Source: Branchiostoma floridae
Lineage: Eukaryota; Chordata; Leptocardii; Amphioxiformes; Branchiostomatidae
Assembly (NCBI RefSeq): GCF_000003815.2
Contig: NC_049996.1
Span: 758,789 to 822,788 of the forward strand
Length of the DNA stretch: 64,000 nt
Direction of reading: 5' to 3'
Each line of letters starts with the position of its first letter. Positions within the stretch are counted from its first letter, which is position 1. The position numbers were made by a program, and so were the translations under genes. This document shows, one piece after another, positions 1 through 58,400 of the stretch. Below the pieces are notes generated by a model, which had not been told where the DNA came from, searched no databases, and saw nothing but the letters and a program-made list of their open reading frames with translations.

Positions 1-189
1 TGCTTTAAGTTGGGACGTTTGAGGGTCGAATCAATTTCACAAGGTGGCCAAATTTTGATTCAGAACTCAAGAAATTGAAGTGCTCAATCATCTCAATGAT
101 CTGACTGACCAGTAATTTTGGGTTGCTCATCAGTCGCCCAATAGTCTCTGTCCTGTTGTAATGGGATCTTACTCATCACGTTTCCCCAG

Positions 190-313: not shown

Positions 314-3300
314 GTGAGGGAAAATGGACAAACGAATGACTGAACGAATGAACAAAGGAATGAATGAATAAACAAACAAGTAAACAATGGAATGAACAAA
401 CAATAGCCAAAAAGGAGGATGTGATAATCAGGTGACTGTCACCTGTACAGTAGTCTCTCTTAGCTGTCAATATGGATATCAAATTGTTGAAGCAAACAAA
501 CAAACAAGATCAAAAATGATAGTCAGAAAACAGGATGTGATGATCAGGTGGCTCTCTATCATTAGTTTCAATATAGATATCAAATTAATTTGTTGAAGGT
601 AAGAAACATACAATTATTACTGGATTAAAGTTAAAGTTGGCCATACGTAAGATGCTTAGGGGTGGTGGCCATCTTTATTTCTGTAGCTCTTGGGCCACTA
701 CAGCTAGTAGTGGTGTGTGTTTAACTCCCATAACCAATATTCTCATTAGTGCTGAGTGCTAAGTAAAGATTTAAGCAGCATGTACTATTAAAGTATTTGG
801 TAATTGACTCGACCGGGATTGAACCAATGACCTACCGAATGCAAGGCGAACACTCTACCCACTTGGCCATTGCATGCATAGCTGGATGGTTGTATGAATA
901 TGAAAGAAATCATATCATTCATTGTACAATTGTTGCATGTCCCATCTTACTACTAAACAAAATCACTTGGTGTCCTACCACCCCATCCCACACATCATAG
1001 ATGACGCTGATGTCAGATGGCTCTTCAACGACAAGGAAATCAGCAACACCGAATCCATCGTTGTGTCCGCAACCAAGCACACCTCCACTCTCACCATTCG
1101 TAAGGTCCTGCGAGAGTTCGAGGGAACTTACACGTGCATTGCCACCACCCCTCACGGTACCGGTCGTTGCCAGATCATCCTGCATATCATTCCGTCCTCC
1201 CCACCCCACGCTACGAGCTCCATCACGAGGAAACAGACCGTACGCACACAGGAGCTGACGTTCAGGGTGCCCATGTTACTCATGGAGAGGTCTACTGCCC
1301 CGGGTACTATAGACATACAGGAGGGGCAGGAACTCAACATACGGGCAGAGATACCAGGTATACGATAGGACAAGTTTATCAAGACAGAGTAAATTAAAGC
1401 TATTTCATGACGTCTTATATAGCTACAAATAAACAAACTTTTGAATTTATGGCGTCTGCAAAATACTTCATGGAAACTCCAGTACCAAAGTATTTCATAC
1501 AACATTATGAATCCTCAGTCAAAAGAATTTAAAGAGAAAATACCTGACCATTACTATCAGTTGATCTTAAATCCAACACAAAAAAGCTACTCTTATCTTT
1601 TTTCCTGTGTGTATACAAGTTTAAATGTGGTTTTCTGGGACAGGATTCTAAGTGTAGGATTGGACAGTGAAGGAGGAATATATATTATTGCATTTTGCAG
1701 TTCAATGGTTTTAAATGCCCCATATTTCACAGACAAAATCAGGAAACAGTTTAGCCATAAACATTTTAATTCTCAAGCATTTCATTGTTCAACATTTTGT
1801 AGAATGCTCAGCCATAATAAGAAGTAGTACAATGCTGTAAAATGAGCCATAATGAGAAGTAGTGCAATATAGGCACAATAAGAAATAGTACAATGCATGC
1901 CTTAATCTAGATACAGTACGAAGATCTTAAAATGTTAACTGTAACTGTGAACATTTTTGTCCTATACAGGAAAGCCTGACATCACTTGGCTGTTTAACGG
2001 TAAGGAACTGAAACCATCCGACGAGGTACAGTTTGGTGTGGACAAAGAGGTCTACATGCTGACTGTCACTAAAGTCACCCGCCATTGGTCAGGCACCTTT
2101 ACCTGCATCGCAAAAACGCCCAGCGGAAAGACCGTGTGCGACATTGTGGTCAACGTGAAGGAATCTCCAGACAAACATCTCGAGATGGAGAAGACAATGG
2201 AAACAGAAGGAGCAGAGGTGAATGTCTGATAGAGTTGCATACAATCTTAATGTTGCCTTCAAGTACCTAGGGTTCAAAATTCTGATTGTAGAGTGGAAAT
2301 ATTTCTCTGAGTCACCAAACATCCCTTTTAGATAGCTTTGAGCTACGCTTAGAATTAGAGAGGAAATATGTGTGATTGAGAAAGTGTATAATCCATTCAT
2401 CATGAGTAAAAAAAAACGTCTATAATTGTCGAACTTTCTTGATCTTGTCACCCCCACAAGATGCATTTCCTCCTGTACTCAAATACCTATGGGAGCTAAT
2501 TGATTTATTGACATCTAGCTTGTCTTGACTTGTCTTACAGTAGGTTTCATCCATTGGTCTGCATAATATTTGTCTTCACTCCATTCACATAATATTATTA
2601 ATTTTTAGATTTTGGGTGAACTACATGCAGAGCCTTTAGCTCGCGGTGAAAGGTAGTGAATGCTACCTGAAACGTACAATCAATTTACAAATCTATCCAG
2701 TTTCTTGAGTAACAATGACTGTTGTCTTATACTACCTGGGTCTAAGTGTCATCAATCCAATATATTTTGCTTGTGCTGTGCAGGTCCAGATGCAGCAATG
2801 GAGACTGAGATCTCCTGTCCAGACAACACAGGCTTCTCCTCCCATGGCTCAGTTTGAGGTCAAGGAGGGGCAAGAAGTCACTCTGAGGGCTGAAATACCT
2901 GGTAGGAACTTCAAGATAATCTTATATACAGCGCCTGGGTCATCTTCTGTAAATACATGTTTACATTATTCTGATATGCTCATATCATTCAAGCTTCAGC
3001 TGTAAATATTCAGGAGGCAAAGGAACTAAGACATGTCGGTAATTATACATGTACATGTAACGTTAAGTGTTTACCTGTCATAAAGTATTGTGCTTTGCTG
3101 CTACATTTGCTGTTCGTTACCTCGAGCTCCCCGCTTTAAATGTTGATACTATACAGTCTCAATCATTCTCTTCTCTCTTTCATGTAGTCATCCTGATGTA
3201 TATGAACATGTATGTGTTAATAGTAACGCTAGTTCACCTTTATCTGTTGGGTAACCAATATCCGTTGCTTTTTAAAAACAGGGTATTTAGGCACATCAAG

Positions 3301-4025
3301 CTTAAGCTAGTCGACAGGTGGTAGTTTTAAACTTCAATATTTGGAAAATATTGCAATTTGAAACTAACGTCCTTCGGCATGATATCCTCAAATACCCTGT
3401 TTTTAAAAGCAACGGATATAGGTTACCCAACAGATAAAGGTGAACTAGCTTTAACTGTTGTAATGTCAAATGTCAAGTACATGTGGGATCCTACCCAAAT
3501 TTGTTTTTAGAACAGTTTTGTTGCTCTACCTCACTCTTAAACTTTGTGGTGGAACATTCTCACAAATTCTGTCATGTCTAAACTGTCTCCATCTCTCCAC
3601 CTGTGTACATGTACATCTTCCTAGATCCTTGGAGCCCACATGGAGGTAAGCATGAGATATATGTAAACTAGCAATACCTACATACCAAAGATCATTCTCA
3701 AGTTATCTGCTTTCATTTATTTAACAAAAATGTCACTGCAATACCACAACATGCTGCAAGGGGGGTCAAGCCTATATAACTTTTTCCATGTACAAGAGCT
3801 ATTCATCACCCCAATTTGTTGACCATAGCATCTCCAGATCAAAAGATAGAAGAAATGGAAATTACCTTGCATTACAAGTTGCTAGGTGGGCCCGGTTACC
3901 ATTTTCATTTTCTTGTTCTCAAGATCTACCCTCATATCAAAAATCAAGACATTCAGGCCTTCTTGAGTTATCATGTTCACATCTTCAAAGACACACACGC
4001 ACACGCATGCACACACACACACACA

Positions 4026-7000: not shown

Positions 7001-10000
7001 CCAGCCAGGTGGTAAGAAAAGACACTGGAGCCTCCACAGAAGTTACAGTCAAGGAGGGTCAGGAGGTCACCTTACAGGCTGGCATCCCAGGTGAGATATT
7101 AAAAAATTAGATCTTCAATCTTTATCTGATAAATGAACATAACAGGCACACATGCATATAGAATACAATATGGTGTATTCCATGTTACCCAAGGTACCAG
7201 CCTGACCACATCCAACCAGCAAGAGGGTTGGGACTGAGGGTAAAGTGGAATACACTGTGTTGTATTTTACTTATGTCATACCCTGACCCCCAAAATTTTC
7301 AACGCAAAACGCAGTAGAGGTTGAGAAAATGTGGTGTACCCAACCAAAAAGTTGCAACAGCAGCTATTCAACAGAACAGACCCAAAATTCAAATTAAAAA
7401 AAAAATCAGAACACCTGTCACTCAATCCAGAACACCTTTAGCGAACATTATCAAGGCACGGGTAAAACATAAAAATAAGCACTAAAGTATACATCACACC
7501 GATGTAATGGTAGTATCCTTTATAGTATAGTCTGTAAGTTACATGAGTAACACATTTTCCAGATGAAATTTCTCTTGCTAGAAACTGTGTACCACAAAGA
7601 ATCACAGCTTATAATAGGATTTTGTACACTTGCTCTGTCAGCATGTAATCTTGAAACATAATTCTGTTGTAGGAAACTACACCATCTAGTGGCTCCATGG
7701 AGGCAGTCTTCTCCCTGACTCAGATCCTTCAGACAGACCACCAAGGGAGATCTCCACATCCTCACCATCCCCAAGATAAAGAAGGAACATGCAGGGACGT
7801 ACACATGTCAGGCTAACAGTGGTACAACTACGGTCAAGTGTGACATCATTGTACATGTCACTGAACAGGAGAGGTAGGATGTTTGTATAGAAACACTTTT
7901 TTTTTTTTCTAAATCATGTTCGTAGGGCCTGATGTTACCATCATGGTGATGAAGAGCGGCCCATAGCGATAACTGTAGCAGCATCTCTTCTCCCTAAGTC
8001 AGAAACATCAAGCTTGACTTCACTGACTCAATAGGCAAAGCAGGGGTTACGAGGCTGCTCGGGAAATTCCCTACCCCATTTTGGCCGGAATGGTTTGATC
8101 CGCCACATCGCACATGTGGCAGGTTCTTTTACGTGCCCGGGGTGTGGCTCTCCCCAAACACGGGACCTCTATTTAACGTCCTATCCGAAGGACGACTCAT
8201 TTTCACTTGAGTAAAGTGAGGAAAGTCGTGTAAAGTGCCTTTCCCAAGGGCACAAGATCGGCAGCACGGCAGGCGGATTCGATCCCGCAACCTCTCGGTC
8301 ACGGGCCGAATACACTTCCACTGTGCTACTCGGCCCCACTTAGTAGTGCAGCAAAGTTAAAGAAATTGGGGGTCTTGATTGACTTACCTTTTCATTGAAA
8401 GTACTTGATGTACCTTGAATGCATACTTCAGGGACAATTATTGTCTGTTAATGATATCTCCTATATCTTCCTGAAACAAAAGCTGTTAGATATTTGTGAT
8501 ATGTTACAAAATGTAGATTTTTGTTATTAAATTTAGATTTTCCAAAATTTTTGCAAGGTTTTCATATCACAAACTGTGACAGCATTGATTTTTAGGTGCA
8601 GTTGCTGCACATTGAAAAAAATATCCACACTCAAAATAAGACCCATTTGCAGCAGCTAACTCCAAATGATTTTCCAAATGAAAGCAAAGGAATCTTTAAG
8701 CACTCAATTAAATAATCAATTTTTAAGCAATGTTTGCTCTTCAAACTTTCTCCAGCTAACAGATTTTCTCATTTCTGTAGACTGGTACCACCAGACTTCA
8801 AGATCAAGCCTCGTTCCCAGCGTGTGGAGAAGGGCGGTACTGTGAGCCTGATCAGTGAGGTGTCAGGGGAGCCTAAACCGGCTGTTTCCTGGTTAAAGGA
8901 TGGCAGAGAGGTAAGATGGGTTTGGAAATGAGTGTAGTTGAATATTTGTTTGGTGCTGTCTTTCAGCTTAATCCAGAAAGTTATAGGACATTTTGAATAG
9001 AAACAAATTTTGAACCCAGGCATAGGACAGATGATAAAGGTAAACTTAAGACATATTTGGGCTGTCTGAATGAGGCTTTCTTGTTTTACTATTATGTGAT
9101 TAATCATTAAGGTGAAACATGTTGCAAAGAGGTTAGCTTATCTTGTGTTGATATACATGTATCTGCATTTTGACATGATTCTGTCCACCTTTTCCAAGAA
9201 GGTTATGTTTTTGTCAACATTTCTCTGTGTGACTGTGTCTGTTAGCACAATGACTAAAAAGTGCCTAAATCAATTGTCTTGGGTATGTCTTTGTTAGACC
9301 TCAAAATGATTATATTTTGGCCCCTTAGCAACTTCTTATGGTACTGCAGTGGATCTTCTCGTTTTGATAGTTTGGAAACAACCAAGAGAGTTGAATGTAA
9401 CATATTCTGGAATAGTCAGACTTATCCAATAACTGTTGTGCAATTTCTAAACTCACAAGAGAAATGCCACAATACCACTATTGGTTTGATCAACTTTTAG
9501 CTAAGGAATTGTACAATGTGTACCTTTCTTGGCTGATATTCCACAACTGTTCATCTCTTTCACAGGTGCTGGAGTCTTCTCGTATTACATCAAAGCACGT
9601 AGGGAAGAACTACATCCTGGAGATATGTGATGCAGGGGAGGAGGACAGTGGGTCTTACACCTGTGTGGGCACTAATGCTGCTGGCCAGTACTCCTGCACA
9701 GCAACACTACATGTCTATGGTAAGTCTTACACCTGTGTGGGCACTAATGCTGCTAGCCAGTACTCCTGCACAGCAACACTACATGTCTATGGTAAGTCTT
9801 ACACCTGTGTGGGCACTAATGCTGCTGGCCAGTACTCCTGCACAGCAACACTACATGTCTATGGTAAGTCTTACACCTGTGTGGGCACTAATGCTGCTGG
9901 CCAGTACTCCTGCACAGCAACACTACATGTCTATGGTAAGTCTTACACCTGTGTGGGCACTAATGCTGCTAGCCAGTACTCCTGCACAGCAACACTACAT

Positions 10001-13000
10001 GTCTATGGTAAGTCTTACACCTGTGTGGGCACTAATGCTGCTGGCCTGTACTCCTGCACAGCAACACTACATGTCTATGGTAAGTCTTACACCTGTGTGG
10101 GCACTAATGCTGCTGGCCAGTACTCCTGCACAGCAACACTACATGTCTACGGTAAGTCTTACACCTGTGTGGGCACTAATGCTGCTGGCCAGTACTCCTG
10201 CACAGCAACACTACATGTCTATGGTAAGTCTTACACCTGTGTGGGCACTAATGCTGCTGGACAGTACTCCTGCACAGCAACACTACATGTCTATGGTAGG
10301 TCTTACACCTGTGTGGGCACTAATGCTGCTGGCCAGTACTCCTGCACAGCAACACTACATGTCTACGGTAAGTGTTTGCTAAGAGTGAGTGAGTGAGTGA
10401 GTGAGTGAGTGAGTGAGTGAGTGAGTGAGTGAGTGAGTGAGTGAGTGAGTGAGTGAGTGAGTGAGTGAGTGAGTGAGTGAGTGAGTGAGTGAGTCAGTCA
10501 GTCAGTCAGTCAGTCAGTCAGTCAGTCAGTGAGTGAGTGAGTGAGTGAGTGAGTGAGTGTGTGAGTGAATGAGAGTAAGTGTGAGTGAGTGAGTGAGTGA
10601 GTGAGTGAGTGAGTGAGTGAGTGAGTGAGTGAGTGAGTGAGTGAGTGAGTGTGTAAGCAAGTGACTAGGTGGTGGAAATAATTTGCCTTATCCCTGAATG
10701 AAATTGAACTTCTAGACATGGAACACATTAAAAATGTAGTTTTCCCAAGCCTAAAATGGTATATTTAGCACCAATCCAAAACAATGAGTGCAATAGAAGG
10801 AAATTAAGCCTAAAGACTGCCCTACAGGCATGTATTATAACTTTAAAATCCAGATATGTGATGAACGTAATGTTGTTTCCAGACAAGGAGACTGGCGGGT
10901 ACTTTGTGCAGGGGAATGGTTCCTCCATAGCGAGTGTGGGTACTGTCACCAGCACACGTGTGGAGGTACCCGAGGAACAACAGGTGTCACTACAGGCAAC
11001 TCTGCCTGGTAAGTACAAAATAGGGGCTGAGATGTCAGTTTGGATTTATTTTTGATTATGAATCAATTTGAATTCTGTTATATGCTTGTTTCAGACATGC
11101 ACCATACTAAATCATAATTGAACTTGAAGATTATGAAATTGATTACAACACTGCACAGTAAATGTTTGAACCACTTGTTTCAGTTTACATTACATATTCA
11201 CCCACTCAGGTAATCTCATGACCAGGTGAGCTTTATCACACCTGTTTAACATCTGATTCAGGTAACCAGGTGTTTATTTTGGATCTTTTATATAGTCCAT
11301 GTGAATACCCTTGTCATACACCTATTTATCCTATTCATACCTGTTCCAGGTGTCAGCATCACACACCTGTTTGACCTATTCACACCTGTTCCAGGTGTCA
11401 GCATCACACACCTGTTTGACCTATTCACACTTGTTCCAGGTGTCAGCATCACACACCTGTTCAACCTATTCACACCTGTTCTAGGTGTCCCCATGACATA
11501 ACTACCTCATCTATTGACACCTGTTTTGTAACCAGGTGTGCTGTATCCCACACCTGTTTAACACCTGTTTCAGGTGACGCAAGGTGTGCATCACATAACT
11601 ATCTAACCTGTTTAGAACCTGTTTCAGGAGATGATGTGAAGTGGATGTATAACGGTGAGGGGCTTCAGCCCAGCGCCCTGTACAAACAGTCGACCCGCGG
11701 CACCACCCACACCCTCACCATCCTCAGGGTCAGCAAACAGCAGGAGGGGACCTACACCTGCGAGGCCAGGGGGCCAACCGGGGTCTCCAAGTGTGACCTG
11801 GTCATCACCGTTCTGCCCAAGAAAAAGTAAGTCCAGCTGCAGTAAAATTTAGTGATAGTCAAAAGCAAATGCAGCCTGTGTCAGTTCTCAGTCACTCACT
11901 CACACTCACTATCCGGAGACTTATCTACCTAAAATCTGAAAATTTTCTACCAGTCCTCACTTTTCATTGATTTGAATTTGGGAAACAGCATTTACTGCTC
12001 TTGAAGTGTTGGGATTCAATTCATACACTTTTGATTCATAAAAGATAGGGAGGGACGACTTTTACATTTTTTCTGAAAGCAAAAGATTGTCACCTAAGTT
12101 TCAATCTTTCTATTTCTTTGCATAATTTGATACATGTAGTGTCCTTTAGTTTCAACATGTACCTTTTTTAAGTTTTTACTCTGTAAATTTGTTGATTTTG
12201 CCAGGTGCAAGTAGTATCTTAAAGTGTGGCTGAAATATGATAAACTATAATCAGAAAACGGTCGGTTTGGTGTAAATATGTAATACTATGTGAATGTAAA
12301 AGTAGTGCTGATGTTCATTATGATTAGAAATTATCTTTATTTCAGCCTCGCTTTGTTTAAGTATATGTCTTTAATTTTGTATCTTCCCACAGAGAGATGG
12401 TTCCTCCAGATTTCGTATCCCAGCCCAAACCAGCGACAGTTGGGGAGGGGGAGTCTGTGGAGTTCTGCTGTCAGATCACAGGAGACCCGCAGCCGGAGGT
12501 TCACTGGTTAAAGAATGGACAGGAGGTAAAGACACCCCTGTAGTGTGGAGTGGTATGCTCCGCTATTCTCAAGGACTGTGCTGCATTCTCACTTCTACCT
12601 GTTTGAGAATATCCTACATTAGAAAGCATGCCCAAAGCCATTGGCAAGGACTAGAAAATGGTGTATAAGCTTGATATGATGTAATGAGGTAAAAGATCAT
12701 TGACATGTGAAAACTGTGCTACCTTGTCTAGAGAATTCTGGTACGAATTATTATCTATGGCCTGTTGAAATGTAAATCTATATATATTCTTGTGATATAC
12801 ATGTACGTGTGATGATAAGGAAACAGATCATAATCATAGACTCCATGCAAGCTTTGAAGCTTGTATAGAACATGGAATAGAACCCTTAGATAATAGAGCA
12901 ACTTTAGAACACATTCTGTGATACAATATAGAAAAGAATCAAAGAATAATTAGAACAAGAGCCATTAAACCATTCTTATATTAGAATATAGAGCAGAATG

Positions 13001-21584: not shown

Positions 21585-22215
21585 GTGGGACCTGTCAGCT
21601 CTCCTGTGGGACCTGTCAGCTCTCCTGTGGGACCTGTCAGCTATCCTGTGTGCCTGTCCATATTCCAGGAGGACCTGTCTGTGTTCCTGTGGGACCTGTC
21701 AGCTCTCCTGTGTGCCTGTCCATATTCCAGGAGGACCTGTCTGTGTTCCTGTGGGACCTGTCAGCTATCCTGTGTGCCTGTCCATATTCCAGGAGGACCT
21801 GTCTGTGTTCCTGTGGGACCTGTCAGCTATCCTGTGTGCCTGTCCATATTCCAGGAGGACCTGTCTGTGTTCCTGTGGGACCTGTCAGCTATCCTGTGTG
21901 CCTGTCCATATTCCAGTAGGACCTGTCTGTGTTCCTGTGGGACCTGTCAGCTATCCTGTGTGCCTGTCCATATTCCAGGAGGACCTGTCTGTGTTCCTGT
22001 GGGACCTGTCAGCTATCCTGTGTGCCTGTCCATATTCCAGGAGGACCTGTCTGTGTTCCTGTGGGACCTGTCAGCTATCCTGTGTGCCTGTCCATATTCC
22101 AGGAGGACCTGTTTGTGTTCCTGTGGGACCTGTCAGCTATCCTGTGTGCCTGTCCATATTCCAGGAGGACCTGTTTGTGTTCCTGTGGGACCTGTCAGCT
22201 TTCCACCAGACAAGA
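21585..22215. repeat. 62-bp minisatellite, nine copies
   Basis: Begins with three short 21-bp copies of GGGACCTGTCAGCTCTCCTGT, then nine units of 62 bp (TATTCCAG at 21,661 and every 62 bp to 22,157). Copies are almost identical. The unit length is not a multiple of three, yet all three forward frames stay open for most of the array. A single g-to-t change at about 21,917 makes a TAG in one frame. Confidence 0.95.
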
Positions 22216-27888: not shown

Positions 27889-28729
27889 CATACAGACATT
27901 ACAAGTTACACATTTGTCACAAATAACACCATTAAGTACTGCAGGATTCACATATTTCTTACCTGGTACTTCTGTACTAATCACCTGGTGTCATCACAAG
28001 TGTCATCTCATCAAGACTGAAACACCTGCACAGCTGGCTGACCCTCAGGACATAGGTAACTGCATTATATGCAAAGAGAAATAAGTTACAAGTTGCTACC
28101 AACGCCAATCCTGTCGTACATTGTACACATCTGGACAATCCTTTTTATGCACTCCTACCTGATTTGGGGGCAAACACAGATTTCACTGGGCTACAGTAAG
28201 TTGGCAGTGGCACTACATTCTAAATTGACTATCATACAAAATGTAATGCAATAAAATGACAACTCAGAAATCATGAAAAGATTTGCTTTTTATCAACAAA
28301 ATTTGTTTAGCGTTCTGTCAAATTGCTCGGCCACAGTGCCCCACCAATGTACCAAAGCTTAAATATGGGATTATTGCCAGAGATCAATTTGGAAGTAAAT
28401 CTTCAACTCAAAGGAAGTGGCAAATAAAGTTGCTAAGCCTATAAGTTGACAAACAAGCCCAGAAACACAGTGCAAAATTTATCTTTAAGATCGACTTTGT
28501 TAATAATTTTGTCTGATGGTCTGCAATTTCATCTGGCTGTTTATCTGGAGGGTAGTCAAAGGGTTTGCTGCTTTTAATGCAACTGTAACATCAATGTCAA
28601 CTTGCTAATACATTTAGCTTTTGGAATTATTTCAGAAAATGTTATCTGCAGAACTAGAACACTATCATATGAGGTTGAGCCTCCTTTTAACTTCATAAAA
28701 CAAAATATTTGAACTTGACCTATATCTAT

Positions 28730-28939
28730 AGCCTCTACCAGGCTTTGTGGATCGGTGGTCTAATTGTAGAAATTTGACAAATAGAGTCAATAGTACGCTA
28801 GGGGAGTCGGTCAGCCAGACAAAACATGAGGTGATGATAATTTTTTTTGGCTGGCCGACTCCCCTAGCATACTAATTTTGACTCTATTTGCCCAATTTCT
28901 ACAATTAGACCACCGATCCACGAAGCCTGGTAGAGGCTA
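28730..28939. mobile_element. MITE-like foldback element, ~90-bp inverted arms
   Basis: TAGCCTCTACCAGGCTTTGT at the left and its complement at the right end. The arms run nearly unbroken through TAGGGGAGTCGGTCAGCCAG / TGGCTGGCCGACTCCCCTAG around a loop of about 30 bp. In RNA this would be a very stable hairpin. Confidence 0.9.
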
Positions 28940-29860
28940 CTAGATGTAGAGAGAGAAATCGACTCTGAAGCTTCTTTTGTTTTTGAAAATCATATTAAGA
29001 AACCTAAGTCAACTTTAGAGCCGCTTTACAATGTTATGAGGTTAGTTGATTAAAACCAAAAATGGATATCATAATGGATAAATCCAAAAGTGGATATCAT
29101 ATCACTCAAGATTTGTCAACATATCGAATTGCTGTCTTTGAAGCTGCAATTACTAGAACAAGTATACAGTCATAGACTTCATAACATTACATGCATCTTT
29201 CAATAGAGTAAAATCAACTTTGAAGATACAAATTATTCGAACTGGAATTGATAAATAGGCAAGTGCAGTCCAAATATTTGCCCATTGCAGCTTTTCAGAA
29301 GCCTACTAAAGTTTGCCCAACTTTTTTGCGGGAACATTGAAATGATTCTAATTAGTAGATCAATTCCATAGCCAAGCCCAACTGGGAAAATGTAGAAATG
29401 CGAAATGGCAACATAGAAATACAAACATTCAACGGAGAAGCAGCTTATTGGTTGGGCCATTAATTGCCGTGCTATCATTGGTTGGTTTACTAATTGTGAT
29501 TGACAGTCAAGATCGGTTCACGTGCTGCACATTCCAACAGGTGGTCGCCCAACAATGCTTACCATGCCAAAACGAATCATGTTTCTAACTGTATTTCCTA
29601 CCGACATTAACCCCTATAGATAGCTGTTCTCAATAACACATAGCATGAAATAAATTCATTCAAGAGGTTCATTTACAATTTAACGTTATAAAATAAAGAG
29701 ATAAAATTCAAAAATTTGATTTGCACATAATAATGGTAAAGTACACAGAAGAAGAAAATGACTTCACGCTTAAGATGTACGTAGCACTAGTAGACAAGCG
29801 ATCCACAGAACAGCAGTTTGCACGAAAGATAATGGGTCTTGTTTGAAATGTATTCAACGG
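28940..29860. other. No gene seen
   Basis: AT-rich DNA within the putative first intron of the minus-strand unit. No exon or clear repeat recognised. Confidence 0.5.
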
Positions 29861-31760: not shown

Positions 31761-31851
31761 TTATCTGCAGCAAGACGCAACTGTCTTGCGAATCTTCTAA
31801 ACCTTACGTTTGGCGCTGACGCGGACCTGTCTTTATCACTTTTTCGTCAAG
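31761..31851 (+). other. 5' UTR exon of LRAT-like gene 1
   Basis: Flanked by TTTAAACCCAG and GTCAAG|GTACGTAC. Homologous exons with the same borders (TTATCTGCAGCAAG start, AAG|GTACGTA end) lie at 36,360 and 37,369 upstream of gene 2, which supports real exon status. No ORF. Confidence 0.65.
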
Positions 31852-32462
31852 GTACGTACAACAAGACAACTGTTCACTAGTACACTACATCATTCTAGGG
31901 GCGCTAAGGTTAAGGTGACAATGAATGTTTTCTTCCACTTATTTGATGATTTATTTTGAGAATGACATTGAATAAAGGCGTTGTCAATTGCCACATTCCT
32001 TTTATGCGTTTCCCAGTCTTCCTTCCAGCAACATAATATCCATATCTTTAGGGGTTTTCTCACGTGCACATGACGATGTACGATCAGAACAGGACTGTAC
32101 TCTATAGATGCACTTGTAATCTATAGATGCATTCATTGCCTCCATTGATAATCTTCTTTACCCGAATAAAAGTTAAAGAATGAGTCTTATCGTAGCAAAG
32201 AAGGCTACTATAGCATTTCCTCATAATTTATGTACTAGATGAGGCACTGATTTAACGTTAAATGATTGATATCTAATAATATTCAACTTTACTTATCTTC
32301 CCGTAATGCCACAAGTATGAAATATTTAATTCTCATCATATACCGCTACAAATTTTTTCTTCTTCTCATTTACCGTGTTCAGTGTCTGGTTATCAAAATT
32401 CGCAAATTAATTACACCGGTATCTAACACTTCGAATGTATCACTTCAGTGCCAAAGAAGACC

Positions 32463-33767
32463 ATGCCGTCATTCAAGGCAATCAAGATACACAAGGTACA
32501 AGATGTACACAAGGGAGACCAGCTTGTGGTTGATAGAGGAGTCTACAAGCATCATATGATCGTGTCTGAAGACCCCACAGATCTAACAAAAGTATCTGTG
32601 ATTCAGTATACCAACGATGTTCTGCCTAGTGCAATGGGTATAATATCAGGCAGTGGTAGGTCGGGAGTTCCTATTGCAGTAGTTCGTAGGGACGTGGAGG
32701 ATATTTCTTCAGAAGTCAGAAAGCGTAGAGTTTATCGCATAGATTATGACATATGCTTCTCCCCTGATACAACAGTGTGGAGTGCTGAAAGTAAACTTGG
32801 TAAAGGTGAATATTCTCCCTTCACAAACAACTGTGAGCATTTTGCCACCTGGTGTAAAACAGATAGACACGAGAGCGCGCAGGTCAATGCATTGATTGAA
32901 CGACTGAAGAAAGAATCTTTGACGGAAGGGGCTAAGCAGGGAACAACGAAGATTGTGAGTGATCCTACAAAAGAAGGAGCAAAGACAACAATGAATAAAG
33001 GCGTTGAATCTGTGGCTATGGAGGTAGTAAAGGAGCTAACTAAAGCTGCAGTGAAAAAATCAGGACCTGACATGTTAAAGGAATTGGCTAGTAATCCAAT
33101 CCTTTTGCGTCAAGCAATAAACGAAGCAACGGAGTCAATCATGAAACGTGCAACTAACAAATTAGTTTTCGACCCGAACGTTTATCTTATGGTTGAAACG
33201 TTTGTGAGCAATTTAGGGAAGGAAAACATGAAACAATTTGCACAGGAGGGGGCCAAAACTGTCATAAAGGACACAGCAAAGACAGCATTAAACGAAGGTG
33301 CCAAGTCTTTAGTCGATCAAGGAGCAAAGCAGGTAGCAAGGGAGGGGGGCAAAACTGCCATGAAAGAAACATCTAAAACAGCAGTGAAAGAAAGTGCCAG
33401 GTCTGTAGCTAGAGAAGGTTCAAGACAGGTAGCAAAGTCAGGGGGAAAATCTCTTTGCAAGAAAATAATTGACAGTCAGGGGAAAATTGGCATTGTAATA
33501 ACAGGAGCAGTAGAAGTCTATGACTTATACAACCGTACTTGTGAATCTAAGGAGAAACTTGACAATGGAGAGATTTCCCAAGGTAAGTTTGAGAAACAGG
33601 TAGTCACTCATGTCGTTAAGGGTGTCGCTTCCGGTGCCGCCACACTTGTTGGTGGTACTCTGGGACAGACCTTAATCCCCATACCGGTGTTAGGTGGTAT
33701 GATTGGAGGGATGGCTGGAAAGGCAGCTGTAATGGTTAGGTGGGTTGGTACTGGGAGAATTGACTAA
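32463..33767 (+). CDS. LRAT-like domain protein with octapeptide repeats, gene 1
   Basis: A protein of 434 aa from one coding exon. ATG at 32,463 lies 14 bp after an acceptor (ACTTCAG|TGCC), and the paralogue starts at the same place. Residues about 10-130 form an LRAT/H-rev107 (NlpC/P60-like) domain: GDQLVVDRGVYKHH with His30, and the hallmark FTNNCEHFATWC with Cys124 as the likely nucleophile. Enzymes of the family transfer or hydrolyse acyl groups of lipids. At the usual second His (VxH) this protein reads VIQY, so activity is not assured. Residues about 259-330 are nine octapeptides of type V-A-K-E-G-A-K-S, and the tail has TLIPIPVLGGMIGGMAGKAA, a glycine-zipper-like hydrophobic stretch. 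No signal peptide. Membrane association is inferred. Confidence 0.85.
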   Translation: MPSFKAIKIHKVQDVHKGDQLVVDRGVYKHHMIVSEDPTDLTKVSVIQYTNDVLPSAMGIISGSGRSGVPIAVVRRDVEDISSEVRKRRVYRIDYDICFSPDTTVWSAESKLGKGEYSPFTNNCEHFATWCKTDRHESAQVNALIERLKKESLTEGAKQGTTKIVSDPTKEGAKTTMNKGVESVAMEVVKELTKAAVKKSGPDMLKELASNPILLRQAINEATESIMKRATNKLVFDPNVYLMVETFVSNLGKENMKQFAQEGAKTVIKDTAKTALNEGAKSLVDQGAKQVAREGGKTAMKETSKTAVKESARSVAREGSRQVAKSGGKSLCKKIIDSQGKIGIVITGAVEVYDLYNRTCESKEKLDNGEISQGKFEKQVVTHVVKGVASGAATLVGGTLGQTLIPIPVLGGMIGGMAGKAAVMVRWVGTGRID

Positions 33768-33771
33768 CTAA

Positions 33772-33777
33772 AATAAA
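33772..33777 (+). terminator. Proximal poly(A) signal, LRAT-like gene 1
   Basis: AATAAA only 5 bp after the stop codon. A distal AATAAA at 35,346-35,351 has the same context as one after gene 2. Confidence 0.35.
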
Positions 33778-35345
33778 ATGGACGTCAGTAACGTGCGTTA
33801 AGAACAACTGAGCAACATGCTTCGGAAGAAACTAAGGTATTGATAAGTTCAATAAAGGAGGTTTTCTTGTGGTCATGTCTTTGCTGTGCTTATGTCCACT
33901 TAACCACGCAGCTATCTGTTATAATAGATTACATACTGGCATACCCATACTACTATTTTCAATATGAATAAAAGCTAATATGAGTATCTTAACTTTCTTA
34001 ACGGCGTGACATTGTTTAGGTAAATGGAGTTAAGAATGTTGAAAATATAACTATCACATCAAATTTGCACAGGAAAGGTAAAAACATTTTTCATATATCT
34101 CAATATCAGTACATCTGTCGATTTTTTATATAAGAAGATGATTGAAGCTACGATGTTAATACAGTTATACCTATACTCAATATACTTTTGCTTGGGTAGA
34201 CTATATTACTTATTATTGCTTTTCCAGTGTTTACAATCTGTTTTAATACACATACAATATCACGTGATAAAAATGAATGAAGGATGAAAGTTTGTTTTTT
34301 ACAGTCAACTATAAACATGTTATATGTACATAGAGTGGACAATAGACATCTGCTGTGGAAAATTTGAAATTGCAACATTTGACTTAGTGAAAACAGCAAC
34401 TAGAGACTGTCAGTAAATGTGACTTTGGATTTCTTATTTGGCTGCAGTGTAAGTGTATCATTTTGAACATTATAAACTGAGTGTAATTTACATACATTCT
34501 TCCTAATGTTATCTTCATTGCCCTGATATGAGACAGCTGACATGCCTACATTTGTACTTAAGGGTGTTTTACTAATGGTAACTACGAAATGTTAGATGAA
34601 TTTGATTGTAGACATTCTGGACCACCTTTCTGTCAGTCATAAGTTTATCAGTACTTAAAATCTAACCACTCAACTGGCAGTAATAATCAATAATACCGAA
34701 AGCAAGCCTTTATTGCTTATTTTTTAGATATGAGTAGCTTAACTTGATAGGCTATAACCACTGATTGACTACTTTGTTCTAGCCACAACAGATAAGTTTA
34801 TGTTAACATTAGACAAACCTTTAAAATACATGCTTTACAACACATACAATATCGAGTATAGTAGTAACTATGGATTGTGAATGATAGTGAACCTTAATTA
34901 TGATATATTTGCAAAAAATGGAAATGGTAAAATGTACATGAAAAACATTTACTGAGTATCAACAGTGAATAGCAACTGTCCATAGAACAGGTGGCAGTTT
35001 TTGTATTTGAGTGGACTGAAGCGTTCATGGTTATGTTTTAAACAGTATGATTTGCGTGTAATTGAACTTTTTCAGAATCTGTTATCTTGATTGCCTGAAG
35101 ATGAAACAGCTGGCGCCCTATCTTAAGTGTGTTTTGCTGATGCAAACTACGAATGTTGGATGTATTTGACGCTTGTATCAACTGCATGATTTGGTGTTGC
35201 GCTTGTTTAACTGAGAACATGTACACTCCTGTAAAATGATTTTATCAAATGTTGGCTTTGTACTTGACGATGGCTGAAAGAATGCCTCATTGTAGCACTG
35301 GGAAATGGTTTCAATTGTTTTCCTTTGATTTATTCCTTTGCATGA

Positions 35346-35351
35346 AATAAA
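35346..35351 (+). terminator. Distal poly(A) signal, LRAT-like gene 1
   Basis: AAATAAATGTTTCTTT, matching AAATAAATGTTTTTTA after gene 2 (40,776-40,781). Confidence 0.5.
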
Positions 35352-36359
35352 TGTTTCTTTACACTCACTGTTTCTTACTATTTTCTATGTAAGTATGCTG
35401 CATACGGTGTATTCTAGTATATTAGGGGTGCTGTACTCTGGTATTTTAGGGGTGAAATTTATAGTTGTTTCATGTAATCAAGGGGAATACGAAAGATTTA
35501 CAAAGACTAGAAAAGCCTACATTTGCTTTAGGAGCAAATACAGCACATTTCGCCCAGCACCGCCCCTTGTAAAAACGGACCGTTCCAAATTTGAATGTAA
35601 AAAAATGTTACCCCTGCGAGAATGGGCTATTCCGGTTGCATGTCAGGTTACATAGACCAGTTCAAAACACCTCAACACAATAAGACTTTAATGTAAAGTT
35701 TAAGACTTATCCGCAATTCTCTAGCCCGGACAGGTTCTCGCTCCATGAGGATCGCAGTACGATGTGCCCTATGTGGCAAAAATTGGCATTTTGAATAGGA
35801 CTGTTTAGCCATAGCCGATGCTGTAGAGCGGGTATGAAATAGGGTTTTACTATATGGTCAATATTGACCGACGAAGGCCACATGTTACAAACATGAGAGA
35901 AAAAAACGTGCTCGAGATGAATTATTTCTTAATAGATATTACGTGACGACTTTGTTTGGGACAATTCTGTGAGAAAATGCACGTGTTTACCTTTCGTAGG
36001 AATCACATAAAACGAATTTGCCATTTTACTGGATGAGCCATTTTATTGAGTTAGCAAAATAAAGCTGCTGTCAGGTAACTCATGTGCTGTTGACTTTGTA
36101 ACCCTGGTAACCGGATCAAGTTTACGTACACCGCCGAGTCAGCCATTTTACTTCCCTATTGTGTGGGCTTGTTACCTATAGATTTCAGATCTATCAAGCT
36201 CGTGTGTTATAGTTCCTTCTCCCGGGCAACTCTGGCATAGAGAACCTTGCTTGGCTATGGTGAAAATCGCGAACCAGCGTTCCCTCAAGTTATAAACGTG
36301 GCCGCTCTAAAGGTCTGCAAAGGAGGCTGTATGTGTACTTTCTCTCTTGTTGAAAACAG

Positions 36360-36453
36360 TTATCTGCAGCAAGGCGCGATTGTCTAGTGCTTAACCCAGA
36401 GTGTGGAGCTGAAGCGCACCGGGTTAGTTGCATGTCATCACCTTTCCAACAAG
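36360..36453 (+). other. 5' UTR exon copy a, LRAT-like gene 2
   Basis: GAAAACAG acceptor, AACAAG|GTACGTAA donor. About 94 bp, similar to the exon at 31,761. It may be an alternative first exon or a relic of a deleted gene copy. Confidence 0.55.
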
Positions 36454-37368
36454 GTACGTAAAACAGAAACAAAATGTTCATCAAATCATTATAGAGACGC
36501 TAAGATTCAGGTAAAAATGTGCTATTTGTGCTGATTTCTTTCTAGAAGGACCTTGCTAATATTGAATGAAGGTATTGCTCATCGTCTTACATTTGTATTA
36601 TACATAACGTAAGAAATACCGTTTGTAGGAACTGAAATAAGATTATTTTGCTGCCAGGTAACTAAGGTACTGTTGACTTTGTAAGCCTGCTCGGTAAACT
36701 TAAACACGTTCGAGTTTCCCTCCGAGTCCGACATTTAACCCGTAGTCAGCATTTTGTATGGAGGTCCTTTTATTGGATTAGCGAGTGCATGCCGTAGTCA
36801 TGAGCACCCCGGAACTTGTCCGTATCTCTAGATCTCTACTCAGGCAAGTCCTCATTCTACGAGGATCGCAGTGCGATATGCCTGTTTAGCCACAGCCGAT
36901 ACCGTAGGGTTTATATGAATTAGGGTTTTACAATGGTCAATATTGACCGACGAAGGCCACATGTTACAACATGCAAAAAAAAAAACGTTCTCACGATGAA
37001 TGCTTTCTTGATAGATGTGACGGCTGCATTTTGGACAATTCTTTGAGAAAATTCATATTTCTACCATAATGTGCCTTTTTATTGTATGTCTGTGAATTAT
37101 TGATCGATCTTATTGTGGTATCAAAGTTATCCTGCTGTCAGGTAACTCAGGTGCTGTTGACTTTGTAACCCTGGTCAAGTAAACACGCCCGCCAAGTACG
37201 CAACTTTCTACTGACAAGTATTGTGTGTGCTTGACAATGACCACCAACAGGAACTAGACGTTTTTTTTTCAATTTATCAATTCTTGTGTCTTAAGATAGA
37301 CTTTTGATATGCCTAACATTGATCTCTCTGAGTCAAAATAGATATGTTCTTTCTACCTTTTTACCCAG

Positions 37369-37450
37369 ATATCCGCAACAAGGCGCCATTGTTTCACTCA
37401 CCTGCTTAACCCAGGGTGTGTAGCTAACAGTTAATCGCTTTTTCAGCAAG
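37369..37450 (+). other. 5' UTR exon copy b, LRAT-like gene 2
   Basis: TTACCCAG acceptor, CAGCAAG|GTACGTAA donor. Nearest to the coding exon and the likeliest partner of the acceptor at 37,876. Confidence 0.6.
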
Positions 37451-37890
37451 GTACGTAAAACAAGACAACTGTTCACTACATCATTATGGAAATGATAAGA
37501 TTTAGGTGGCAAAGGAATCTTTTTATTTCATTTCTTCATCAATTCGTGCCGATGTATTCAGAGAAAGGCCTGGCTATCATTAAGTAAATGTATTTGTCAT
37601 CATCACATTTGTTGAACTGTGCGTTTTCCAGTAGAAGTATAAGAATTTCCCCTTGAATTAGGTAAGAATTTGCGTGATTTAAGTCTAATGATATTTACCT
37701 CTACTTATCTTCCTAATGCCGCAAGTATGAAATTCTCATCTTATACTACTATGAAATTATAGTATTTTCTAATGATGTTTTCACTGTGAACCGTGTTCGA
37801 TGTATGATTATTGCAAATCATTTGCAAATTAACGATACGTAACTGAATTTAACACTTCAAATGTATCACCATATAGTACCAGAGAAGACC

Positions 37891-39804
37891 ATGCCGCCAT
37901 TCAAGGAAATCAAGGTACGCGAGGTGAGAGATCTACACAGGGGAGACCAGATTGCGATTGACAGAGTAGCCTACAAGCATCACATGATCGTGACTGAATA
38001 CCCCACAGATCTTACAGAAGTATCTGTCATTCAGTATACTAACGATGTTTGGCCTGGTGTAACTGGCATAATAGCATGCAGTGGTAGGTCAGGAGTTCCT
38101 ATAGCTATAGCAAAAGTTCGTGCAGACGTGGAGGACATCTCTTCAGACGTAAGACGGGCTAAAGTATACCGCATAGATTATGACGAATGCTTCTTCTCCC
38201 CAGACGAAATTGTACAGAGAGCTAAAAGTAAACTTGGTGAAAGTAAATACTGTCCGTTTACAAACAACTGCGAGCATTTTGCCACCTGGTGTAAAACGGG
38301 AATTCACGAGAGCTCGCAGGTCAAGTCTGCGGGGAAGGCGGTAGCTAGGGAGGGGACCAAAACTGCCATGAAAGAAACAGCGAATACAGTATTAAGCGAA
38401 GGTGCCAAGTCTGTAGCTGGAGAAGGGGCAAAGCAGGCAGCAAAGGAGGGGACCAAAACTGTTATGAAAGATACAGCGAATACAGTAGTAAAAGAAGGTG
38501 CCAATTCTGTAGCTGGAGAAGGAGCAAAGCAGGCAGCAAGGGAGGGGGGCAAAACTGTCATGAAAGAAACAGCAAAGACAGCAGTGAAAGAAGGCTCCAA
38601 ATCTGTAGCTGGAGAAGGGGTAAAACAGGTAGGAAAGGAGGGGACCAAAACTGTCATGAAAGAAACAGCAAAGACAGCAGTGAAAGAAGGCTCCAAATCT
38701 GTAGCTGGAGAAGGGGCTAAGCATGTAGCAAAGGAGGGGACCAAAACTGTCATGAAAGATACAGCGAATACAGTATTAAGCGAAGGTGCCAAGTCTGTAG
38801 CTGGAGAAGGGGTAAAACAGGTAGCAAGGGAGGGGACTGGAGTAGCCATGACAGAAGCAGGAAATGAAGCATTTAAGGAAACACTCGTAATGATAAGCAC
38901 ACCATTCTCTGCAGGCCAGGCAATTAGGGAAGCATCTGTAAATTTAAAATATCCCGTAGTGAACCTTGTTATCGAAAGGGCTGCAAGTGACCTTGCAACA
39001 GACGCAGTGAAGACAACACTAGCTTATGAGACAACTATCATAAAAGCTGCCATGGAAGAAGCATTATTAAAGGAAACACTCAGTGAGATAAGCAATCCAT
39101 TCAAAACAGGCCAAGCAATAAACGAAGCAATAAACGAAGCAACGAGGTCGATGTTTGAAAGCGCAACAGGCTTAAGAATGATATACCCTGTAAAGAACTT
39201 TGGCCTTCTGATGGCTGAAAGGACTGCAAGCGAGTTTGCAAAAGACGTCGTAAAGGAAAACACGAAACAATTAGCAAAGGAGGGGGCCAAATCTGTCACA
39301 AAGGACACAGCAAAGACAGCATTAAACGAAGGTGCTAAGTCTGTAGCTGGAGAAGGAGCAAAGCAGGCAGCAAGGGAGGGGGGCAAAACTGTTATAAAAG
39401 AAACAGCAAAAAAGGCAGTGAAAGAAGGTGTCAGGTCTGCAGCTAGAGAAGGTGCAATGCAGGCAGCAAAGTCAGGGGGGAAATCTCTTGGCAAGAAAAT
39501 AATGGAGTGTCAGGGGAAAATTGGCATTGGACTAACTATGGCAGTAGAAACCTATGACCTCTACAACCGCACTAGGGAATCTAAGAAGAAACGTGACAAT
39601 GGCGAGATTTCACAAAATGATTTTGAGAAACAGGTAGCCACTCATGCCGTTAAGGGTGTCGTTAAGGGTGCCGTCTCCCTTGTTGGAAGTACCTTGGGAC
39701 AAACCTTAATCCCCATACCTTTCGTAGGTGGTATGGTGGGAGGGATGGCTGGGAAGGGAGCTGTTCGGGTAGGTGAGTGGGGACTGCAATACTTGACCAA
39801 TTAA
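37891..39804 (+). CDS. LRAT-like domain protein with expanded octapeptide repeats, gene 2
   Basis: A protein of 637 aa from one coding exon. I chose ATG 37,891 because the in-frame ATG at 37,861 would lie inside the intron if the ATATAG acceptor at 37,876 is used as in gene 1. LRAT-like domain: GDQIAIDRVAYKHH (His30) and FTNNCEHFATWC (Cys127), again with VIQY where a second His is usual. Residues 151-310 are five near-identical 32-residue units, each of four octapeptides such as VAGEGAKQ; a sixth is partial. A central helical part with KETL..IS.PF.....AI.EA occurs twice. Residues 461-532 repeat the nine octapeptides of gene 1, followed by DLYNRTRES and the hydrophobic TLIPIPFVGGMVGGMAGKGA. 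The block resembles synuclein, LEA and apolipoprotein lipid-binding repeats in composition only. Function unknown. Confidence 0.86.
   Translation: MPPFKEIKVREVRDLHRGDQIAIDRVAYKHHMIVTEYPTDLTEVSVIQYTNDVWPGVTGIIACSGRSGVPIAIAKVRADVEDISSDVRRAKVYRIDYDECFFSPDEIVQRAKSKLGESKYCPFTNNCEHFATWCKTGIHESSQVKSAGKAVAREGTKTAMKETANTVLSEGAKSVAGEGAKQAAKEGTKTVMKDTANTVVKEGANSVAGEGAKQAAREGGKTVMKETAKTAVKEGSKSVAGEGVKQVGKEGTKTVMKETAKTAVKEGSKSVAGEGAKHVAKEGTKTVMKDTANTVLSEGAKSVAGEGVKQVAREGTGVAMTEAGNEAFKETLVMISTPFSAGQAIREASVNLKYPVVNLVIERAASDLATDAVKTTLAYETTIIKAAMEEALLKETLSEISNPFKTGQAINEAINEATRSMFESATGLRMIYPVKNFGLLMAERTASEFAKDVVKENTKQLAKEGAKSVTKDTAKTALNEGAKSVAGEGAKQAAREGGKTVIKETAKKAVKEGVRSAAREGAMQAAKSGGKSLGKKIMECQGKIGIGLTMAVETYDLYNRTRESKKKRDNGEISQNDFEKQVATHAVKGVVKGAVSLVGSTLGQTLIPIPFVGGMVGGMAGKGAVRVGEWGLQYLTN
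38341..38820 (+). repeat. Five 96-bp tandem coding repeats
   Basis: Each unit codes for 32 residues made of four octapeptides (VAREGTKT, AMKETANT, VLSEGAKS, VAGEGAKQ and variants). Gene 1 has no equivalent at this position, so the expansion is specific to gene 2. Confidence 0.93.
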
Positions 39805-55400: not shown

Positions 55401-58400
55401 AGACCACACGAAACTTCTAGAAAATGGCAAGAGAGTAAGTTTTCTCGACTTGAAGTAGGAGAGGAGCTCCACTTACAAATGGGTACTTAGAACGAGAATG
55501 TAACCAATCTCTAACACGCGCGCCCACTTTTAGTCGGCTCGGTCCCCCAGAAAGAATCCTTCACCACCTTTTGTTGCGCTGTTCTCAAAATGGTCATTCG
55601 TCGTTTTCCTAAGTACACATACTCTTGACTTTCTTGGTCAGAAAAAACGTTATATGACCGCGTTTCTGTCAGCAAGGTACTCCAAACCCCATTAGTGAAG
55701 AAAACATGGCATTGTAAGCACAATTGATGCCAGTTATTGGCGGGAAATGTGCGTCAAATGCTGACACAAGCACAACCACCTGCCGCACCTGCTACGCAAG
55801 CGGATATGTCGTCTGCAAAAATACCCACAAAGCAATGCGATTCTTTACGCATCTATACAATCTATATATAGATTTCTGACGGACAAACAATAGTACTTGC
55901 TGTATAACTACTGGAAAAAATGCAAACTATTCTGTAATAAATATTTTAAGAATTCTATCTACGTTAAGTATAAATAAGACAAACCGAGCCGGCAGAGTAT
56001 GCTGAATGTTTAGTCCTTTGGTTTAGCAGCAATTTTTGCTGGATTTTTCTTCTTTTTTTCGACCTCGCACATTAATTAGTTTTGGGACCATTAGAGGATG
56101 CCATCCATAAAATAAAGTCACTGCGGCCTAACATAAAAGTACCCCAAAAAAAATAACCCAAATGTTTGGGGAAAAAACGCGTAGGACGAAACTGGCTTCT
56201 TCAAATTCCTCAGCCAAGTGTGACGTCACAAAAATAGTTGCCAAAACCTGACTTAACGTCCGATCATGTTGTCTATATCCTCGATGAAAGGACAGGGACA
56301 GTGTGGAGTGAAACGGGAACATTTATACTGTTTGACCCCCTCTCTGTCGCTGAGTGACGAAACCCAGAAACCACGTGCCGTACACTTGAGAAAAAACAGA
56401 CGCACTTATACCATGTCAATCCATAAGTGGACTTGCGATGTTAATTGAGTACAATAATCAAAACATATGGAGCTACTGTTGCACTTAATACAAAGTATGA
56501 TTTATACCTAAGAGCTAAAAGCACTGAAGACATTTTGTGAAGAAATGGTCTTTTTTTTTCAGTCGAAGTGGGTCACGTGCCAAGATAACTTGCCGCAGAC
56601 TTTGAAGTAAGAGTGCAACATTTAACGCAAAAAAAGCATTTTATTTGCTTGCATATTTGTCTGCATTTCTTTGTACTGTTTCGAATTCTCCATTCATACA
56701 TAGACTCTAATTGCTAAAACCAAATCTCTTCTAAGAGAATTCGTAACATAAGTCTAACTATTTTGTTATGATTGTTGTAATACAGTAGCTGGGTACTTAA
56801 TATTACGACTTAGTAACAACGGGCTTCTTCTAAAGATAGCGTAATGCGGCTGGATTTTTTCTTTTGTCACTCTTATAAAACACCTGAAATTCTTTCCACC
56901 CACACAATAAGACGATGAGTGATCTTTAACAGAAAATCGTCTCAGTTTCTGACTTCCCACGGTGTTGTCTTCGTGTTTATTCTGTCAAACATCACATCCT
57001 ACTATTCAAATGTATACTTATCATATATTCTGTTATTTCTTCTCATCTCGGGTCCATTTTAGTTGCTAACTCATGAATCAGTTATGTTAAAAAGTAGCCA
57101 GGTCTTCCACCACAAGCGATTAAACAAAGTAAATACATTTGAGTATTTCCGGCAGTGGTTTGCTTTCCAGGCACAATTTTGACAAGGAAACATCACAAGT
57201 GTCTGGAACATTGTAGAAGGAAAGCATAAATCAATAGAAGTACCCACTAAGTGTATGTAATGGCTTGTAATGATTTATTTTCCGGAAACCGAAGTCAGGA
57301 AACCCGTGTTAGTGAACCGTAGTAGAGGAGACATGCCGACCCAAACACGATACGTTAATTAGCTCCCAGAAAAATAACAGACCCGCTCTAGACGTGTTTA
57401 TAGTTTGTTACCAAAAATAAATCATGTCAAAACTACAAACAGGTGTGGAGGGACCAACTTTTGAACCCCAAACAGGTGCAAAGGAGAAAATGGAACGACT
57501 TTTTGGCTCCACGCAGACGATAAAAATATCCACGCTTCTGATTGGTTGCTGAGCTTACCTGACATGCGTACTGCGCGCAAGGGTCTTGATCTGACGTCCA
57601 CTTGTCGCCACTGTTGTATACCTGACCTTGAAACGTACAACCTGCAAGAAATATACATGAATACATAAAGAAACTTTGTCGAAACTTCAACGACAGTCAT
57701 ACCAGATCATTGCAATAGACGTTTTGGGTTGAACGTTTCAGCTTTGGTTTTCAAGATTTTGGGTTTTGAGGTTTCAAGTTTTGTTTTTATGGTTATATTT
57801 TCGGGATATCATTTCTGTGCGCATTGCGTTACATGAGCTGTATTTGTGCGATCTTTTTCTACCTGAGGTTTCATCAGGTATATCTCTTAACACCTGCCGA
57901 TAAAGGTGTAGATTTCCACCTAGTACACCACGCGCGATATCGCTTAGGTACTTTGCATTTTTCCCACCATGTAGTTCTGGAATACCACTTCTGTGTGTGT
58001 GGGTTTGCTACCTGAAGTTTCGTAAGGTATATCTCTTTATACCTGCCGATATAAAGGTGTAGTTTTTCACCGCCTAAGAGTCACATCCATGCACGATAGA
58101 TACTTTGCTTTTTCCCACCATCTAGCTTCGGAATATGTGCGGGGTTTTCTGCTAAATTTTCGTAAGGTATATCTCTGTATACCTGCCGATAAGGTATAGA
58201 TTTTCACCACATAAGAGACACGCCCACGCACGATAGATACTTTGCTTTTTCCCATCATCTAGTTTCAGAATTCGTGCGGGTTTTTCTGCTGAATTTTCGT
58301 AAGGTATATCTCTTTACACCTGCCGATAAAGGTATAGATTTTCACCACATAAGAGACACACCCACGCACGATATCGCTTAGGTAGACACTTGTCCTTTTT

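Follow-up and report, generated by a model that had tools for sequence, protein, structure and literature searches.

Tandem amphioxus genes join an LRAT domain to octapeptide repeats and a tail module resembling part of a bacterial anti-phage candidate

We analysed a 64,000-nucleotide stretch of the Branchiostoma floridae genome (NC_049996.1, positions 758,789 to 822,788; hereafter the window) and, within it, a tandem pair of genes, gene 1 and gene 2, each coding for an LRAT domain, then octapeptide repeats, then a glycine-rich tail. The tail module appears to be homologous to the C-terminal part of PDC-M09B, a phage-defence candidate in PADLOC (PDLC04408-04410), and one segment of a tape-measure protein from a phage resembles it too. 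The reading that we favour, by a narrow balance of probability, is that the pair encodes a PLAAT-like phospholipase/acyltransferase brought to a membrane by the repeat rod and a glycine-zipper module. The LRAT domain is known; the architecture, which a preliminary description of this DNA had singled out as unusual and which is found in both genes, and the kinship of the tail appear to be new. The animal data searched for the tail module and for the LRAT architecture were the window's own genome (513,431,437 bases in 431 contigs).

Both genes are intact forward frames without internal stops (Table 1), and on the strength of the open frame we provisionally label them 'single exon'. The LRAT profile PF04970 matches gene 1 with 54.5 bits (E 1.8e-14) and gene 2 with 61.4 bits (E 1.3e-16), above the Pfam gathering cut-off of 24.3; by profile, both products are LRAT-domain proteins, and the earlier claim of two tandem NCEHF-type LRAT genes stands. 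Among solved structures, PLAAT2, 3 and 4 and an HRASLS3/LRAT chimera lie nearest by sequence to the LRAT domain of gene 2 (E 0.0017 to 0.12), and NCEHF aligns on NCEHF in all three alignments shown between this domain and its solved relatives. The two proteins are 63% identical at aligned positions, and likeness extends about 200 bases upstream (32263-32887 against 37675-38324, coding start included, 78%). Donor-like AAGGTACGTA sites at three places suggest that both genes may have non-coding first exons. Between the copies, the ratio of nonsynonymous to synonymous substitution rates (dN/dS) is 0.43 for the LRAT domain, 0.57 for the tail and 0.61 for the repeats and middle part, and both genes are therefore under moderate constraint.

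Table 1. Coordinates of the tandem LRAT genes and associated features in the window
Feature	Window position	Residues	Strand	Remarks
Donor-like AAGGTACGTA upstream of gene 1	31849..31858		+	possible end of a 5' untranslated region exon; putative, sequence only
Gene 1 coding frame, LRAT - repeats - tail	ATG 32463, stop 33767	434 aa	+	one open frame
Gene 1 LRAT domain	32502..32870	14-136	+	His30, Gln48, Cys124 in NCEHF
Gene 1 octapeptide repeats	33245..33435		+	2.0 units of 96 bp
Gene 1 tail module	33477..33764	339-434	+	PDC-M09B profile matches aa 364-424
Further donor-like AAGGTACGTA copy	36451			putative, same basis
Donor-like AAGGTACGTA upstream of gene 2	37448..37457		+	possible end of a 5' untranslated region exon; putative, same basis
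Gene 2 coding frame	ATG 37891, stop 39804	637 aa	+	one open frame
Gene 2 LRAT domain	37933..38304	15-138	+	His30, Gln48, Cys127 in NCEHF
Gene 2 first repeat block	38340..38837		+	5.2 units of 96 bp, 4 octapeptides each
Gene 2 second repeat block	39273..39479		+	2.1 units of 96 bp
Gene 2 tail module	39511..39801	541-637	+	PDC-M09B profile matches aa 567-629
Gene 2 tail predicted helices		546-569, 575-606, 610-636		AlphaFold

The DNA between the two genes holds a repeat of about 300 bases (35795-36108 and 36876-37175, 76%). A third LRAT copy on C18 (L036:4369-4809; C18:1,268,363) has a frame lacking NCEHF and looks degenerate; Glu replaces Gln48 in it, and it adjoins reverse-transcriptase-like open frames.

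The octapeptides are encoded by 96-bp tandem units, each giving 32 residues or four octapeptides, so the period of eight first noted is upheld. Residue identity at lag 8 is 0.43 in gene 2 and 0.32 in gene 1, on a background of 0.00-0.08 at lags 3, 5-7, 9-11 and 13-15; lags 4, 12 and 16 are also raised (in gene 2, 0.37 at lag 16, 0.21 at lag 12 and 0.16 at lag 4, against 0.03 at lag 11). Four stretches from three proteins (gene 1 with one, gene 2 with two and a related frame at C16 with one) each have their hydrophobicity peak at 90 degrees, or 4.00 residues per turn, a peak that none of 500 shuffles matched in any stretch. In gene 2, small or hydrophobic residues predominate at octad positions 1, 4, 5 and 8 and polar ones at 2, 3, 6 and 7; position 7 is E or D in 23 of the 24 octads. 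Such 4-residue spacing of small residues is the spacing of GxxxG motifs and glycine zippers. The preliminary description had compared the repeats to those of synuclein and late embryogenesis abundant (LEA) proteins, which are defined by an 11-residue period. The amphioxus repeats are amphipathic, but their period is 8 with a 4-residue stripe, and identity at lag 11 stays at background (0.03-0.04), which does not support a synuclein/LEA-type repeat. AlphaFold places helices across the repeat region at a predicted local distance difference test score (pLDDT) of about 50, and we therefore call a helical rod likely rather than established.

The rod could instead be a recent, selectively loose expansion of the 96-bp unit with no role beyond spacing: copy number differs between the genes (2.0 units against 5.2 plus 2.1), and the repeats and middle part have the highest dN/dS of the three regions. 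The sharp 4-residue stripe argues otherwise, as it recurs in three proteins, one of them the C16 frame without LRAT, and exceeds every shuffle in each. We consider a loose expansion possible, if rather unlikely.

The IPIP motif and the spaced glycines that had been described are present in both tails, and the tail is a module separate from the enzyme, occurring by sequence in five amphioxus frames (three of them LRAT-less), with weaker matches in another two. With gene 2 as query, a scan of the whole genome located it at C16 (a 290-aa frame, which has octapeptides too), at C13 (186 aa) and at C5:12.0 Mb (344 aa), with no LRAT match at those loci. The C16 protein as query adds two neighbouring frames at C5:18.84 Mb (E 0.03 and 0.06), of which one has an in-frame signal-like start; ahead of the other lies a signal-like frame of its own. 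Against a profile of bacterial tails the pair reach 26.2 and 24.6 bits, and PADLOC gives one of them (L141) E 0.0026 and the other (L143) nothing, so we count five firm and two weaker members. L143 and L141 are possible secreted members of the tail-module family; they read GEISYEEF / GEISMTDL and have the PIP tail motif.

The five firm tails have fourteen invariant columns, among them the spaced glycines, GQ and IP-x-P. The bacterial tail profile, built from 65 of 94 frames (400-530 aa, locus below L120), was run against 3,382 amphioxus frames from 50 stretches, mostly picked for LRAT or tail content and mutually overlapping, and at E<=100 reported the seven tail-bearing frames alone. In the C15 cluster, C8 and C17 stretches, a two-row tail profile gave no significant match, and PADLOC gave no match for the short C15 LRAT tail exon or the C8 LRAT frame; ordinary LRAT genes seem to be without the tail module. 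AlphaFold predicts three helices for the tail, with block pLDDT of 68-98 across the module, and hydropathy in the five amphioxus proteins has its maxima, 1.43-1.88, around IP[IV]P. The profile of C19orf12-like proteins (PF20721) weakly matches gene 2's tail at E 0.37 and two bacterial relatives at E 0.043 and 0.017, all below cut-off and not significant.

The PADLOC profile for PDC-M09B matches gene 1 at E 5.2e-9 and gene 2 at E 2.2e-8, covering the tail alone; the C16, C13 and C5:12.0 Mb frames follow at E 2.7e-11, 6e-8 and 2.1e-8. This profile was built by others and is independent of our own IP.P-seeded search. Run against the whole genome in six frames (E<=10), it gave at least five matches, which are the five firm tails (E 9.3e-9, 7.2e-7, 3.6e-6, 7.6e-5 and 1.4e-4), the count being a lower bound as five candidates cleared the first screening step; none of 14 control genomes matched. 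The shared part is the C-terminal module, at about positions 328-398 of the 480 in the profile, of which the window genes cover 330-387 and 331-389. The N-terminal half of the bacterial protein is unlike them, and a partner, PDC-M09A, lies beside it. Since the C-terminal module is all that is common to both, the window genes are not PDC-M09B.

In bacterial genomes, a five-row tail profile seeded with the IP.P motif confirmed 93 of 180 pattern matches, and 80 of the 93 places entered the frame set; in viral contigs it gave 14 of 91. Lengths of 450-499 aa occur in 48 of the 94 bacterial and viral frames, and HG[EFY]IAE in 52; this motif lies in the N-terminal part of the frames read by eye, a reading that covered part of the 94. 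By eye, the N-terminal half of PDC-M09B seems nuclease-like from its motif. Two tail-bearing bacterial frames, L045 and L048, have N-termini that by eye seem HNH nuclease-like, and the module may therefore join more than one kind of N-terminal half. None of five tail-bearing bacterial frames had a Pfam match above cut-off. A PDC-M09A frame stands directly upstream of PDC-M09B in all four loci inspected, and in a scan of four PDC-M09A frames every one matched the LeoBC profile (E 1.5e-5 to 4.1e-8). One PDC-M09A frame (L076:783-1997) opens with a long amphipathic, repeat-like part, after which comes a hydrophobic stretch rich in glycine and alanine. Our literature search found no paper on PDC-M09B; PMC11811056 describes PDC-x systems as unpublished candidates from Payne et al. 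2021.

The likeness extends to phages. In a prophage-type tape-measure frame (L128), one 157-aa piece matches both a tape-measure PHROG (E 1.2e-17) and PDC-M09B (E 2.5e-9); L129 and L130 resemble L128 by eye, the scan having covered L128. Three weak or moderate PHROGs are common to L128 and the C16 tail. Searched against 50,697 phage records, the C16 tail found one match, annotated as a tape measure, at E 0.01 and 96% query coverage, and against plasmids six records at E 0.008-0.03, all labelled 'hypothetical protein'. In L128-L130 the module directly follows a K/T/A-rich stretch (TATKSIKQTATNAIKSTATATK in L128), a placement that recalls the amphioxus rod. The differences are that a tape measure is a structural virion protein with no LRAT domain, and that its pre-module stretch peaks at 97-100 degrees, not 90. 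For P0001 and P0002 no tape-measure PHROG was listed up to E 1, which does not place them in the tape-measure family. TelE, an LXG toxin of the type VII secretion system, is likened here by function from its description and not by sequence: it too has a C-terminal glycine zipper, with a glycine required for membrane damage (PMC10434224).

Might these likenesses have arisen by convergence on a hydrophobic hairpin with a glycine zipper rather than by common descent? Glycine zippers are simple in composition, the bacterial set was itself seeded with IP.P, and the blind phage search did no better than E 0.01. Because that seeding could favour the motif, we sought motif-free tests. With GQxxIPxPxxGG masked, tail-region scores in all five proteins exceeded every one of 400 shuffles, though absolute scores are low (9.6-19.7 bits for the flanks, 3.2-17.9 for whole proteins). 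Profile-profile comparison gave a probability of 99.3 (P 1.6e-20, 70 columns), its bacterial side being motif-seeded; in the alignment, the GEIS-like turn that precedes helix 2 and the turn GQ-x-x-IP-x-P keep their order, with one 4-residue length difference. The structure alignment held 5 amphioxus and 53 bacterial or viral rows, the latter being the 54 non-redundant frames of the 94 without L121 and L123 and with L130. That turn order, the masked flanks and the recovery of exactly the five tail genes from 513 Mb by an independently made profile lead us to regard convergence as improbable.

As to catalysis, the NCEHF cysteine and the first histidine are kept in both genes. His30, in YKHH, aligns with the YRHW histidine of the HRASLS3/LRAT chimera and corresponds to the histidine that PLAAT/LRAT enzymes carry on strand beta-2, by the assignment given in PMC10102619. 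We looked for the second histidine of these enzymes, on strand beta-3, and found Gln48 in its place in both genes; this third catalytic position reads VIQ there versus VIH in six readable LRAT exons of the C15 cluster. The single C-terminal transmembrane (TM) segment of PLAATs was also looked for, and is replaced by the rod and the predicted three-helix module. As the second histidine and the single TM segment are both absent, the pair are not PLAATs in the strict sense. They share with PLAAT1-5/HRASLS and LRAT the profile match, NCEHF with its catalytic Cys, the first His and possibly a membrane-association part placed after the enzyme, and differ in the Gln and in having an octapeptide rod and three-helix module instead of one TM helix. 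Neither departure is without parallel in PMC10102619: PLAAT1 has Asn at the third catalytic position, NlpC/P60 enzymes have a polar residue there, and PLAAT5 too is without a C-terminal TM segment. Judged on sequence, genes 1 and 2 likely have phospholipase A/acyltransferase activity. That the LRAT is a dead or modified lipid-binding domain in a membrane scaffold or coat whose repeats and tail do the work would fit the Gln in both genes beside the VIH of the six C15 exons, and the C16, C13 and C5 frames with a tail and no LRAT match, but the retained nucleophile Cys and His30, the lowest dN/dS of the three parts and the precedents of PLAAT1 and NlpC/P60 make it decidedly improbable.

In the reading of an enzyme brought to a membrane, the LRAT domain (His30, Cys124/127, Gln48) would release or transfer a phospholipid acyl chain. 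The octapeptide region, in which the 4-residue stripe of small and hydrophobic residues is observed, would form a long, probably helical rod; the last two of the three predicted tail helices would form a glycine-zipper hairpin around IP[IV]P and so seat the protein in or on a membrane. Rod and module would together stand in for the usual single membrane helix of PLAATs, which in PLAAT4 puts the protein on membranes and is termed indispensable for function in PMC10102619. The most likely job would be to deliver the enzyme to one particular membrane and perturb that membrane, much as PLAAT3 relocated to mitochondria deforms them (PMC9338259). The preliminary description's proposal of action on lipid surfaces thus survives in part: hydropathy and the glycine zipper make a membrane setting plausible, whereas the synuclein/LEA analogy fails.

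Several observations weigh against this reading. The Gln in place of the second catalytic histidine in both copies means that catalysis is not assured. The tail model has a predicted template modelling score (pTM) of 0.43, which leaves the three-helix packing uncertain; the model of the whole gene 1 protein has pLDDT 33.8, and no solved or viral structure matched the tail at E<=0.001. The tails of the window genes are marginally hydrophobic (1.53 and 1.43; Kyte-Doolittle, 19 residues) and contain lysines, and may therefore sit on a membrane or bind protein rather than cross the bilayer. On the side of kinship, the masked whole-protein scores are weak, and gene 1, at 3.2 bits (E 0.027 in a search of 5), lies under the inclusion threshold of HMMER; with the C16 tail as query, the blind searches of phages and plasmids reach just E 0.008-0.03.

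An immune role for the pair is plausible, a reading that draws on the kinship of the tail with bacterial proteins and on an LRAT gene of Branchiostoma belcheri, listed in PMC5752451 among the top 15 induced after poly(I:C) (log2 11.40); that gene cannot be tied to the window genes. The picture suggests an animal enzyme aimed at membranes, perhaps those of invaders, and the target could, speculatively, be a microbe or the vacuole that holds it. At its boldest, an animal lineage would have acquired a module of a bacterial anti-phage system or a tape measure, now in at most seven genes, and one pair would have been fused through a glycine-zipper-like rod to a PLAAT-type phospholipase, as an infection-inducible effector that docks on and digests microbial or vacuolar membranes; taken whole, we think this scenario unlikely.

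The window contains other repeats. A 72-bp repeat (9652-10373; ten copies, 98% alike, 24 aa per copy) sits in one long open frame with immunoglobulin-domain-like ends (SYTCVGTNAAGQYSCTATLHVYGK), and a 62-bp repeat (21609-22204; 9.6 copies, 98% alike) has long open frames in the three forward frames. Two self-complementary stretches of about 230 bases each (3224-3453 and 28720-28949; 81% and 86%) are like miniature inverted-repeat transposable elements, and 57855-58373 holds about 2.6 copies of a 137-bp unit.

What the tandem pair offers is a testable module common to one family of animal enzymes, a candidate for phage defence in bacteria and at least one tape-measure protein of phages. Should this module insert in membranes, a single experiment on the protein from the animal would bear on all three, and the animal proteins that have parts from prokaryotic conflicts would gain an enzyme equipped to dock on membranes by itself.

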